Shown here: in pieces, positions 19,445-36,334 of the stretch
Numbering within the stretch: the first letter of the stretch is position 1
How the letters are laid out: the number at the start of each line of letters is the position of its first letter
Assembly: GCA_036388415.1 (NCBI GenBank)
Contig: DASVRW010000002.1
Coordinates: 603,396 to 667,395, forward strand
Direction: 5' to 3'
Origin: Candidatus Saccharimonadales bacterium
GTDB lineage: Bacteria > Patescibacteriota > Saccharimonadia > Saccharimonadales > UBA4665
DNA: 64,000 bases
Notes under the pieces: model-generated
Database searches by the model: none
The model's input: the letters and a program-made list of their open reading frames with translations, nothing else
What the model was told of the DNA's origin: nothing
Made by a program: the position numbers and the translations under genes

Positions 19445-20995
19445 ATGGAAAAACGAATTCTTATAGCCAGAGTATCAGACGTTGAGCAGCGCAAAGCACT
19501 GCCTGCACAACGCCAAAGGCTAGAGAACTATGCCAAACAACTTGGCGGCCCCTACGAGTATTTTGAGTTTGATGAGAGCGCCTATAAAGAAGCTCGGCAA
19601 AAGTTCTCTCAGCTCGTAGAGAAAATCAGAACCCTCGACCACTTTGCGATTATTGTCTTCGATAAAATAGATCGTTTTACCCGTGACGCTTCGCAGTCTG
19701 AAGTGCGAATAATGGGTGGCTTGGTCGAGAAGGGCAAGATCGAGATGCACTTCCCGTCTGATAACTTGGCGATCACCAAGGACTCACCTGCTACCGATCT
19801 CTTCCGACTGGGTATTGGCATGCTGCTGGCAAAGTACTATTCGGATGCCAGCCGTGATAATGTGAAGCGCCGCTTCGAACAAATGCTAAACGATGGCATA
19901 TGGGTACACCGCGCGCCGACTGGTTACAAAAATGTGATCACGGGTGGCACGCCTCAGCGCCCCACTAAAGACATAGAAGTCGATCAAGCCAAAGCTCACT
20001 TTGTGGTTAAAGCATTCGAGATACGGGCGCAGGGTATCTCGTACGGCATGATCGCAAAAGAACTTGGCAAGATGGGCTTCAGTAGCAATGTCGCTGGCAA
20101 CAAACCGCCGACTAAAGCATTTCTAGAGCGCATGCTTAATAACAAGTTCTACTACGGAGTAATGACGCACTCGGGTAGAGATTACCCTCACAAATACGAA
20201 CCCTTAATTGAGCGCTCCCTATTTAACCAATGCCAGTCGGTGCGTGATAAACGCAAACACGACAAGACCAAATATGACAGCATCGACTATACCTTTAAGA
20301 AGATCGTGAGCTGCGGCGTATGCGGTCGCGCCGTATCACCTTTTAAGGCGCGGAATACGGTCTATTTACGATGTGCCAGCGCCGGTAAGTGTGGTGATCC
20401 GAATACGGCGGAGAGTTTGGTGATAGATCCCGTGTCCGCCGATATGAGCTTTGTCGGCATACCAGAAGAATGGTTAGAACAGATAATTACTGAGCTGCGC
20501 AAGCGTCATGACGACCAGCAGCAATACTATGGTAAAAACATTGAGCAGACTAGAGCGGAATACGATCGCCTAAAGTTGAAGATGAAGCGACTCTATGATG
20601 ATTACCTCGACGGGCGTATTACTCAGCAGACTCACGACGATTACGCCAACGAGATGGAATCTAGGCAACAAGAACTCAATGATCGCCTAAAAGTTCTAAC
20701 AAAGGACAATAAGAGCTTTCAAGTGACCGCTTCATACCTGTTAGACCTAGCACAGCGAGCTGAACTGCTCTTCAAAACCAGTGACGAAGGGCTAAGACAG
20801 AAGCTCCTTGAATACGTACTTTCAAACATTGAATTAAAGGATAAGAAGTTGTCGTATATGTTCAATAACCCCTTTGGAACAATCGTCGAGGCAAACAAAA
20901 AGGCCCTTGCGGGCCAAAATGATACTATTTGGTGCGGGTCAGGGGACTCTAACCCCTGGCCTCGTCCTTGGCAAGGACGCGCTCTAAACAACTGA
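19445..20995 (+). CDS. Large serine recombinase (integrase)
   Basis: A 516-residue recombinase. The resolvase domain has the catalytic serine in LIARVSDVEQ (about residue 11) and VFDKIDRFTRD at about 69-79. The recombinase domain (GTPQRPTKDIEVDQ onward), a zinc ribbon (SCGVCGRAVSPFKARN...LRCAS) and a coiled coil at about 360-430 follow. It should integrate and excise the 11.2 kb element at tRNA-Gly. The last 20 or so codons, after Trp near 20932, are the antisense of the tRNA, so the C-terminus (CGSGDSNPWPRPW onward) is host-encoded in the integrated state. No frameshift is seen. Confidence 0.93.
   Translation: MEKRILIARVSDVEQRKALPAQRQRLENYAKQLGGPYEYFEFDESAYKEARQKFSQLVEKIRTLDHFAIIVFDKIDRFTRDASQSEVRIMGGLVEKGKIEMHFPSDNLAITKDSPATDLFRLGIGMLLAKYYSDASRDNVKRRFEQMLNDGIWVHRAPTGYKNVITGGTPQRPTKDIEVDQAKAHFVVKAFEIRAQGISYGMIAKELGKMGFSSNVAGNKPPTKAFLERMLNNKFYYGVMTHSGRDYPHKYEPLIERSLFNQCQSVRDKRKHDKTKYDSIDYTFKKIVSCGVCGRAVSPFKARNTVYLRCASAGKCGDPNTAESLVIDPVSADMSFVGIPEEWLEQIITELRKRHDDQQQYYGKNIEQTRAEYDRLKLKMKRLYDDYLDGRITQQTHDDYANEMESRQQELNDRLKVLTKDNKSFQVTASYLLDLAQRAELLFKTSDEGLRQKLLEYVLSNIELKDKKLSYMFNNPFGTIVEANKKALAGQNDTIWCGSGDSNPWPRPWQGRALNN
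20897..20915 (-). terminator. Terminator of tRNA-Gly inside recombinase gene
   Basis: On the minus strand GGCCC-loop-GGGCC followed by T5 lies 14 bases after the tRNA CCA end. On the plus strand the same bases encode recombinase residues near the C-terminus (KKALAGQ), so tRNA terminator and coding sequence overlap. Confidence 0.75.
20929..20937 (-). repeat. Right attachment core at tRNA-Gly 3' end
   Basis: TTGGTGCGG contains the CCA end and the first acceptor bases of tRNA-Gly. It differs at one base from the four TTGGTGCAG copies to the left. If crossover occurs within GGTGC, an element with attP GGTGCAG would leave GGTGCGG at the tRNA and GGTGCAG at its far end, as observed. Confidence 0.6.
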
Positions 20996-21006
20996 GCTAG
21001 ACCCGC
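20930..21006 (-). tRNA. tRNA-Gly(GCC)
   Basis: A 77-base cloverleaf with encoded CCA. The acceptor stem is GCGGGTC/GACCCGC, and the anticodon stem CGTCC/GGACG encloses TTGCCAA, giving anticodon GCC. The T-arm is AGGGG-TTAGAGT-CCCCT. Two normally invariant bases are changed together: G19 is T in the D-loop (AGTTGTTTA) and C56 is A in the T-loop, so the tertiary 19-56 pair would be U-A instead of G-C. Its 3' half is the integration target of the element to the left. Confidence 0.95.
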
Positions 21007-33792: not shown

Positions 33793-33814
33793 AAAAAGGC
33801 CCTCATTGAGGACC
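33793..33814 (-). terminator. tmRNA terminator
   Basis: GGTCCTC-AAT-GAGGGCC followed by T5 on the minus strand, 12 bases after the tmRNA CCA end. Confidence 0.9.
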
Positions 33815-33826
33815 GAAAATCTTATT

Positions 33827-34246
33827 TGGAGGAGCTGGCGGGCACCGCCCCCGCGTCCGCCGGTTTATCTTGGTTAGTCGTCTACAGGCATAGTCTCGCT
33901 CTGTTCTCCTGGGCGAACCATGGAGTCTTAAGGAACGACATATGAACGGACGAGTTGTTCATTCCAGCAATCCTAAGTCTTAGCGGACGCTATGGATCAT
34001 AGAATCCGAGCAACCAGATGAATTGGCGCGCACTTTGGATATCTGACGTCTCCGCGTGCACGGCTACTAGTAAACTAGGCAGCTAGTGCGAATGCACTCT
34101 TTGGAGCGAGCTTTGCAGCAAGCGTATCAATGAGTGATTCGCGGTCTTCAGTAGATGTTGCATCTAGAAGGTTTTTGTCTATAACGCTGACAAGCGACCT
34201 GCTGATCTAACCGATAAAGTCCAACGTCAAGCTTAAAGTCAGCCCC
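33827..34246 (-). ncRNA. ssrA: Transfer-messenger RNA (tmRNA)
   Basis: A 420-base one-piece tmRNA that rescues stalled ribosomes. The 5' end GGGGCTG pairs with CAGCTCC before T-CCA at 33827. A GCGGACGCGGG segment precedes the T-arm, as in other tmRNAs. The tag frame ends in ...AFALAA and TAG at 34077-34075. The probable resume codon GCA at 34161-34159 (about base 86) gives a 28-residue tag starting ATSTEDRESL, which is long. The T-loop is GGCGGTG instead of TTCRANT, and the D-loop lacks the usual GG pair (AAGCTTGAC instead of GGATTCGAC). No gene annotation would show this because the region has only chance open frames. Confidence 0.93.
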
Positions 34247-34334: not shown

Positions 34335-35507
34335 TTAGTAACCAATGATATTTCGCACGGTCGTGTAGGCAGGCTTCGGCTGGTAACTGGTGTTGAACAT
34401 GAGCGGCATTTCACCGGCGCCAAGCCAGGTGTGGCCATCATCGACGCCCCAAACTGTAATCCGGGTGCAACGGCTGACAGCCTGGCAGGCATTGGCAATA
34501 TTCGCATACATATTCGCCTGGGCCTTCAGCTTCTGAGCAGTCGTGCCGCCAGTCGGCGATGTTTTTACGTCCAGTTCGGTAAATTCTACGTCAACACCAA
34601 GATCAGCGAAGCGCTGGACATTGGCTTGGACTTCTTCGCGGGTCGGCGACCAGCCGCCCGGCTCTGTCTCTAAATGAGCCTGGAAGCCAACACCATGAAT
34701 CGGGACACCTTGGGCTTTGAGGTTTTTAACGAGATTATACATAGCCGTACTTTTGGGGTTGATCCACTCGACGCCGTAATCGTTCAGGAAAAGTTTGGCG
34801 GTTGGATCAGCTTCGTGGGCATACCGGAAAGCATTGGCGATATAGTTCGGGCCAAGAGCGTTATACCAGACGGTCTGCCGCCAGCCACCGTTATCGTCAA
34901 AGGGTTCGTTAACTACATCCCAGACAGGTACCTTTCCTCTGAAATGCGCCAGTACTGTCTGAATGTGGGTTTTCATAACTGGATCAAGCGTGGCAGCAGT
35001 CCAGCTGCGACCGGTGAGCCAGCCTGGGTTAGATACATGCCAGACGGTCGTGTGGCCGCGGATTTGCTTGCCGTTTGTTAGGGCGAAATTGACCATGGCG
35101 TCAGCAGTCCCAAAATTGAATTGTCCCTGCTGCGGTTGTAATGGCTCCATTTTCATTTCCCACTCAGCAGATAATGAACTGAAGTTCTGCAGGAAGGTAT
35201 TCCGGTAGGTAGCATTGCTGTTGATAGTGCCGATTTGGATGGCAGCACCCAGCGTGACCTTGCTGCGGCTGGCGCCGAACGTAACCGCATTGCCTCCAGA
35301 AGCAGTCGTATCCCTCACGACTGACGCCGGCGCCGACAATGTGCCGCCCTCCGGCTCAGCTGCGACGAGAGGAGTTGCGGCTTTACTTATCATCAATGTG
35401 ACGATGCCAGCCGCTACAATCATCAGGACAATACAGATCGCCACAATATTTGGTCGTCGTGAGCTGAGCTTAGTAGTATGTCGGTTTTTTTTAGTTTTTG
35501 TGGCCAT
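34335..35507 (-). CDS. Membrane-anchored GH10 endo-beta-1,4-xylanase
   Basis: A 390-residue secreted or anchored xylanase. A basic start and one hydrophobic helix (IVAICIVLMIVAAGIVTLMIS, residues 21-41) are followed by the Saccharibacteria-type segment AAEPEGGTLSAP...DTTASGGNAVTFG. The GH10 barrel starts near residue 84. The acid/base is Glu201 in VWDVVNEPFDD and the nucleophile Glu311 in VEFTELDV; GHTTVWHVSNP and GVGFQAHLE are also typical. It should cut xylan or related glucans outside the cell. It is transcribed in the same direction as ksgA. Confidence 0.93.
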   Translation of the reverse strand: MATKTKKNRHTTKLSSRRPNIVAICIVLMIVAAGIVTLMISKAATPLVAAEPEGGTLSAPASVVRDTTASGGNAVTFGASRSKVTLGAAIQIGTINSNATYRNTFLQNFSSLSAEWEMKMEPLQPQQGQFNFGTADAMVNFALTNGKQIRGHTTVWHVSNPGWLTGRSWTAATLDPVMKTHIQTVLAHFRGKVPVWDVVNEPFDDNGGWRQTVWYNALGPNYIANAFRYAHEADPTAKLFLNDYGVEWINPKSTAMYNLVKNLKAQGVPIHGVGFQAHLETEPGGWSPTREEVQANVQRFADLGVDVEFTELDVKTSPTGGTTAQKLKAQANMYANIANACQAVSRCTRITVWGVDDGHTWLGAGEMPLMFNTSYQPKPAYTTVRNIIGY

Positions 35508-35542: not shown

Positions 35543-36334
35543 TCAACCCTTTTTTACATAGGCACTGTAGAGTTCGTGCCATTGATCCAGCGACAGATTC
35601 TGTGCCCGTAGCTGCGGGCTGATACTGGCTTGTTCGAGCAGCGCAGTTGTTTGTTGTTTGTCCAGATGCAGGCCGGCACTGAGCGAATTAAGCAGTGTCT
35701 TACGCTTGGCGCCAAACCCGGCTTTGACGAGACGGAAATACTGTTTGCTATCAACGTCAGGAAACAGCAGTACGTCCCGGCGTTTTAGTACCACAATCTG
35801 TGAATCCACCTTTGGCGGCGGCGTAAACAATTCGGCGCCAACAACTGGGCCGAGTGATACTTCCCAGTAATACTGGCTGGTTACGCCGAGTATCGACAAC
35901 TGCCCTGGGGACGCTGCCAGCCGCTCGGCGACTTCTTTTTGCACGAGCAAGGCAGCAATAGCTGGCGAGTTGGAGGACTCAGACAGCACACGGACAAGTT
36001 TACTCGTCAAATAATACGGAATGTTAGCGACAACCTTATAATCAGTCGCCATCGTCGTCAGGTCAAACCGCAAAATGTCACTCTGTACAACCCGAAGGTT
36101 TGCAGCCGGCACACGCTTCGCGAGATCACGTGCCAATGCTGGATCGAATTCAACTGCCGTGACTGCCGCTGCCGACTGTACGAGTAGCCGGGTGAGCGCA
36201 CCGGGGCCTGGACCAATTTCGAGTACGACGTCGTCGGGCTGAACGTCGGCAGCAATCAGCATATTTTCGAGGCTGAGCTCGTCGTCAAGCCAATGTTGGC
36301 CAAGAGACTTGTTAGGTATCGGATTGTTTGTCAT
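35543..36334 (-). CDS. rsmA: 16S rRNA dimethyladenosine transferase KsgA/RsmA
   Basis: A 263-residue methyltransferase that dimethylates two adjacent adenines near the 3' end of 16S rRNA. Motifs: SLGQHWLDD at the start (usually GQNFL), SAM loop VLEIGPGPGALTRLL at about 40-54, VVQSDIL, the catalytic NIPYYLTSKLV at about 107, and FTPPPKVDSQIVVLKRR. TTATAT lies seven bases before the ATG, so a leaderless start is possible. The gene is 35 bases upstream of the xylanase gene. Confidence 0.95.
   Translation of the reverse strand: MTNNPIPNKSLGQHWLDDELSLENMLIAADVQPDDVVLEIGPGPGALTRLLVQSAAAVTAVEFDPALARDLAKRVPAANLRVVQSDILRFDLTTMATDYKVVANIPYYLTSKLVRVLSESSNSPAIAALLVQKEVAERLAASPGQLSILGVTSQYYWEVSLGPVVGAELFTPPPKVDSQIVVLKRRDVLLFPDVDSKQYFRLVKAGFGAKRKTLLNSLSAGLHLDKQQTTALLEQASISPQLRAQNLSLDQWHELYSAYVKKG

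Follow-up and report, generated by a model that had tools for sequence, protein, structure and literature searches.

Few tertiary contacts of tRNA-like RNAs are as conserved as the elbow between the D-loop and the T-loop, and the canonical T-loop motif comprises a U54–A58 trans Watson–Crick/Hoogsteen pair and a U-turn at positions 55–57. How, then, might the elbow be held together in a tmRNA in which both loops have changed? The question is raised by a locus in the 64,000-nucleotide stretch of DNA from a Candidatus Saccharimonadales bacterium that we analysed (the window), for which a first-pass annotation had described a non-canonical T-loop and a D-loop without GG. Both descriptions proved accurate. 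The T-arm reads GCGGG-GGCGGTG-CCCGC, the loop GGCGGUG standing in place of UUCRANU, which is usual in tmRNA without being defining, and with G54 and G58 the canonical U54–A58 pair is not present; the D-loop ACUUUAAGCUU, which precedes the conserved GAC, has AG (A18–G19) rather than GG at positions 18–19.

The locus is a genuine and complete one-piece tmRNA gene on the minus strand (34246..33827; Table 1). Its RF00023 match spans positions 1–374 of the 374-position model (37.5 bits, E 3e-13), which aligns through the pseudoknot region, though parts of the alignment are of low confidence; its score stays below the gathering threshold of 47, and the gene was missed both by ARAGORN and by a gathering-threshold Rfam scan of the window. 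The low score and the ARAGORN miss would fit a decayed gene or a sequencing error, but we regard this explanation as exceedingly improbable, since the gene is the only full-length copy in a 99%-complete genome of 1.14 Mb, in which all other RF00023 matches are tRNA-sized or shorter, and its stems, resume signal, tag frame and CCA are intact. Furthermore, 71 other sampled tmRNAs have the same loop type, and it was on this conservation that decay or error was rejected; an error in the T-arm specifically, which the first-pass annotation had allowed for, is excluded by the occurrence of G54–G58 in 72 of 215 sampled tmRNAs with 7-nt T-loops, the window's own included. We also rejected a group I intron in the T-loop, as is known for tmRNA (PMC11915505), there being no insertion in a loop of 7 nt, and an alternative T-arm hairpin GGGC/GCCC, possible via G60, which is suboptimal (-7.1 versus -8.6 kcal/mol).

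The same genome encodes SmpB (PF01668, E 1.8e-41; G000:C2:206960-207379), which was found there and in 37 of the 40 genomes searched. The discriminator of the tmRNA, at 33830, is U73 where A73 is the usual base, and the genome's own tRNA-Ala(GGC) ends in ACCA. A Glycosyl hydrolase family 10 gene (34335..35507, minus strand; PF00331, E 1.6e-102) lies directly upstream of the tmRNA, and the neighbour of that gene, at 35543..36334, encodes a KsgA-like rRNA adenine dimethylase. Located 3' of the tmRNA CCA is a terminator-like hairpin that barely exceeds the shuffle level.

Table 1. Features of the tmRNA locus, in window coordinates.
Feature	Position	Strand	Basis
One-piece tmRNA gene (ssrA), 420 nt with encoded CCA	33827..34246	-	Full-length RF00023 match; sole full-length match in genome
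Acceptor stem 5' half GGGGCUG	34240..34246	-	7/7 pairs with CAGCUCC, including G3·U70
D-loop ACUUUAAGCUU; A18 = 34233, G19 = 34232	34229..34239	-	Sequence; numbered by alignment to RF00023 consensus GG-AUUC-GAC
Resume codon GCA	34159..34161	-	UAGAU directly before, as in relatives
Tag frame, 28 codons, ATSTEDRESLIDTLAAKLAPKSAFALAA	34078..34161	-	Stop UAG at 34077-34075; relatives 22–35 residues
T-arm, 5-bp stem (33854-33850 / 33842-33838) and 7-nt loop	33838..33854	-	Pairing; minimum-energy fold
Variant T-loop G54 G55 C56 G57 G58 U59 G60	33843..33849	-	Sequence; loop type conserved in relatives
Acceptor stem 3' half CAGCUCC	33831..33837	-	Pairing
U73 and encoded CCA	33827..33830	-	UCCA in 9/218 sampled tmRNAs, 6/29 in family
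Terminator-like hairpin, then TTTTTCTTTG	33798..33814	-	Weak: 1 found; shuffles mean 0.6, s.d. 0.8

The first-pass annotation had also placed the resume codon GCA at 34161 and read from it a probable 28-residue tag ending in ALAA, which it called long by comparison with about ten residues in E. coli. The reading holds, with UAGAU before the codon, UAG after the frame and ALAA at the end of the tag, and the tag is indeed long, but not unusually so among relatives. A motif search from the same starting place gave tags of 22–35 residues in 34 of 36 tmRNAs from this genome and its relatives, and the remaining two, read by eye, have 27 and 24 residues; a looser scan, which gave a candidate in 28 of 29 family members, put the family median at 27. 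Since the relatives span 22–35 residues and a review gives a known range of 8–35 (PMC3968760), 28 residues is a normal tag length in this clade. That 34 of the 36 tmRNAs show an open tag of this length from the same place also makes it unlikely that the resume codon lies much nearer to the stop. The ALAA at the end of the tag encoded in the window is uncommon in the family, where only 4 of 28 members have a tag ending in LAA.

The tmRNAs used for comparison were collected with RF00023. Among 40 genomes (the window's own and 39 relatives), 36 have a full-length tmRNA by this model; the other four (G020, G027, G035 and G039) may have missing contigs or more divergent genes. A class search matched 169 of 195 genomes at E 1e-14 and a phylum search 251 of 286, and among low scorers 35 of 40 genomes had any match at 1e-9, tRNA-sized matches included. 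The resulting 218 tmRNAs consist of the 36 above, 29 and 30 loci from the class and phylum searches, a further 40 and 60 hand-picked from the listed matches at about one per genus or family, and 23 low scorers, partial or tRNA-sized matches (L044, L045 and L228-L234) having been dropped beforehand. The sample is biased in that the hand-picked class and phylum rows are higher scorers and poor matches are under-sampled, the added low scorers coming mainly from the class. Counts over 215 rows refer to Patescibacteria tmRNAs with 7-nt T-loops, leaving out three with 6-nt loops behind 5-bp T-stems (L107, CTCATA; L122, ATCAAA; L160, TTCAAT). A 6-bp T-stem in front of a 7-nt loop is the best reading for L013, L019, L039 and L223, which are Saccharibacteria-like, and for L077, L083 and L099 from other Patescibacteria. 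The rule used to anchor positions favours G at 19, so that G19–C56 cannot count as independent evidence; for five rows the anchor was reset by hand, and the other register in L058 and L139 would yield G18.

The two loops do not vary independently of one another. Residues 18 and 55 are A–G in 140 of the 215 tmRNAs, G–U in 63, U–G in 5, C–G and A–U in 2 each, and U–U, G–C and C–C in 1 each, whilst residues 54 and 58 are U–A in 137, G–G in 72, A–U in 3, C–A in 2 and C–C in 1. Exceptions to the 18/55 rule are L018 and L201 (A18, U55), L136 (U18, U55) and seven tmRNAs with U18 or C18 facing G55. Fisher's test of G18 or other against U55 or G55 gave 5e-51 for all rows and 5e-28 for one row per family (108 families), deeper relatedness remaining in both. 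On a tree from which the elbow had been left out, 54 and 58 changed together in 8 of the 9 independent pairs that had support, with 0 opposite (p 0.008), and 18 and 55 in 4 of 5, with 0 opposite and 1 unchanged (p 0.125, too few pairs for significance). R57 and, nearly always, C56 are retained across loop types.

These data bear on the alternatives that the first-pass annotation had offered, namely that the elbow is held together differently or that the tmRNA depends on other contacts with SmpB. The covariation of 18/55 and 54/58 indicates the former. The T- and D-loop changes that it reported are real, but, as read from the aligned letters, they are paired replacements, 18 with 55 and 54 with 58, rather than losses. 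A weakened or lost elbow, with SmpB or the ribosome holding the tRNA-like domain by other contacts, is in our view unlikely: both classical loop signatures have changed, and SmpB, which is present, reportedly binds the elbow and stabilises the D-loop (PMC3968760), but drift would then be expected, whereas the residues of 54/58 and of 18/55 vary jointly, with conservation inside each loop type, and their combination turns up again in alphaproteobacteria (below).

Mutual information over 55 feature pairs ranked 54–58 first (1.045 bits, 0.99 of the maximum) and 18–55 second. Residues 54 and 60 covary too (0.603 bits), G54 occurring with A60 in 59 of 72 tmRNAs and U54 with U60 in 122 of 137, which would suit a different contact between the loops, with a GCRGU pentaloop closed by a sheared G54·A60 pair and no pairing of 54 to 58. 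We consider this geometry quite improbable, however, as 54–58 covaries more strictly and G54 is found also with G60 in 9 tmRNAs, G60 being the residue of the window tmRNA, and with U60 in 4.

The distribution of loop types suggests an order for the two replacements. Most of the 36 full-length tmRNAs share the window's loop type, and aligning the Saccharibacterial tmRNAs, a check proposed in the first-pass annotation, showed that the type is conserved in the order. G54–G58 is commonest in the order sample (46 of 69) and the family sample (25 of 29); in the class sample A18/G55 and U54–A58 each occur in 24 of 25; and at phylum level G18/U55 is commonest (62 of 92 7-nt loops), with A18/G55 in 25 of 92. 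UGCRANU T-loops belong to the class and some other Patescibacteria, GGCRGUR to the order. From this distribution and the RF00023 consensus, which has GG before aUUCGAC, we infer that 55/18 changed first and 54/58 second. The first step would have replaced U55 by G55 and, with it, G18 by A18 (UGCRANU), and the second would have exchanged U54–A58 as a pair for G54–G58, or sometimes A54–U58 (GGCRGUR).

In the usual elbow, U54–A58 closes the loop, the U-turn begins at U55, which is in contact with G18, a C56–G19 pair forms, and residue 18 lies between 57 and 58 (PMC7912444, PMC4810234). It is probable that the window encodes a working tmRNA in which the elbow is kept by matched substitute contacts between D-loop and T-loop, comprising a G-started turn, A18·G55, G19–C56 and G54·G58, the geometry of which we infer. 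Because U, G and protonated C can each begin a U-turn (PMC5311481), G55–C56–R57 could keep the turn, forming it as in GNRA loops. A18 would then take the place of G18 in contacting G55, and G54·G58 would form a trans purine–purine pair on the T-stem in place of U54–A58, a type of pair with precedent in the A54·A58 of eukaryotic tRNA (PMC7566577). Since D-loop/T-loop contacts are reported to be required for SmpB binding (PMC3968760), the pairs would be expected to be exchanged, not lost. Alanylation via G3·U70, SmpB binding and tagging with the 28-residue ALAA peptide would be expected as in other tmRNAs, and the variant loop could take neither m5U54 nor pseudouridine-55.

Within the window's genome the elbow swap is limited to the tmRNA among the RNAs examined, 35 distinct tRNAs (against 40 tRNA matches in the genome) all keeping T54, T55 and A58. 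Elbow requirements thereby become directly testable, the tmRNA having undergone a two-pair exchange and the examined tRNAs of the same genome having kept the old form. There is no support for a cause in lost modification enzymes, TruB being encoded in 20 of 21 genomes and a PF05958 protein, either TrmA or possibly a 23S rRNA methylase, in 15 of 21, the window's own included in both cases. Only 2 of 21 genomes have a GIDA family (PF01134; MnmG/TrmFO) match above the cut-off, and none was found in this one. Separately, the 19–56 contact of tRNA-Gly(GCC) (20930..21006, minus strand; T-loop TTAGAGT with A56, D-loop TAGCTCAGTTGTTTAGAGC) looks U–A, not G–C, and that of the genome's tRNA-Ala(GGC) (L250 1501..1577; T-loop TTTGAGT with U56, D-loop GA) looks A–U, which would be another compensated elbow pair.

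Detection of these genes varies with the start of the loop. Given artificial flanks, ARAGORN recovered 0 of 71 tmRNAs with loops starting GG, 50 of 71 starting TG and 55 of 64 starting TT, and for this reason GG-loop tmRNA genes are likely to be under-annotated. The Rfam gathering cut-off was passed in 32 of the 40 genomes of the nearest group.

A contig scan for the GG loop joined to a tmRNA 3' end returned at least 117 stretches, 80 of which were listed. Among the matches listed, 48 are one-piece, with a D-loop AG in 46 and UG in 2, whilst 30 are permuted and 2 were not classed; A18–G19 is present in all 30 permuted loci listed, which by their NCBI names comprise 24 Alphaproteobacteria, 5 other Pseudomonadota and 1 Micavibrio record filed under Bdellovibrionota. 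The consensus of alpha_tmRNA (RF01849), the two-piece form of Alphaproteobacteria, has T-loop GGCgGUA and D-loop AAAuAGGAUC-GAC, the same elbow letters as the window tmRNA, which for its part has both the GGCRGUR T-loop of RF01849 type and the A18–G19 D-loop. UUCRANU is hence not obligatory for tmRNA. The two differ in that alpha_tmRNA is a permuted two-piece gene, whereas the window tmRNA is one-piece, with its 5' acceptor half upstream of the T-arm, and belongs to another phylum, where its sampled relatives show UUC/GG, UGC/AG and GGC/AG stages. Because alphaproteobacterial two-piece tmRNAs carry the same combination, the elbow swap in Patescibacteria and alphaproteobacteria looks convergent, arisen at least twice in tmRNA. 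A broader proposition, for which we judge the chances to be evenly balanced, is that the tmRNA elbow (in the window's genome, that of the tmRNA only) was turned independently in Saccharibacteria and in alphaproteobacteria into a second stable form that would need no T-loop modification, with a G-started turn, A18·G55 and a closing G54·G58 pair. One pair would have been changed at a time, and the result would set tmRNA apart from the enzymes that modify tRNA and from the recognition of ordinary tRNA elbows.

Compared with the standard tmRNA of RF00023, the window tmRNA shares the acceptor G3·U70, a T-arm of 5 bp and 7 nt, the resume codon and tag, and CCA; UUCRANU and the D-loop GG are replaced, and the score falls under the gathering cut-off. 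Purine–purine 54/58 pairs are known as A54·A58 in eukaryotic tRNA-Ala and initiator tRNA and are described as not seen in bacterial tRNAs (PMC7566577); they resemble the pair proposed for the window tmRNA, but in tRNA and as A·A, not G·G. The open-access literature, covered mostly at the level of titles, yielded no statement of the Saccharibacterial variant or of 18–55/54–58 covariation in tmRNA, and the elbow is unmentioned in the part available of a tmRNA covariation paper (PMC7657543). Two guanines replace U341–U342 in the mitochondrial tmRNA of Reclinomonas americana and one guanine replaces U342 in the tmRNA of Caulobacter crescentus (PMC1168896), both RNAs being of alphaproteobacterial descent and the passage concerned leaving the D-loop counterpart unmentioned. 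The GG loop type is thus already known from alphaproteobacterial and mitochondrial tmRNA; what appears to be new is its occurrence in one-piece Saccharibacterial tmRNAs, the stepwise path to it and the 18–55/54–58 exchange rule.
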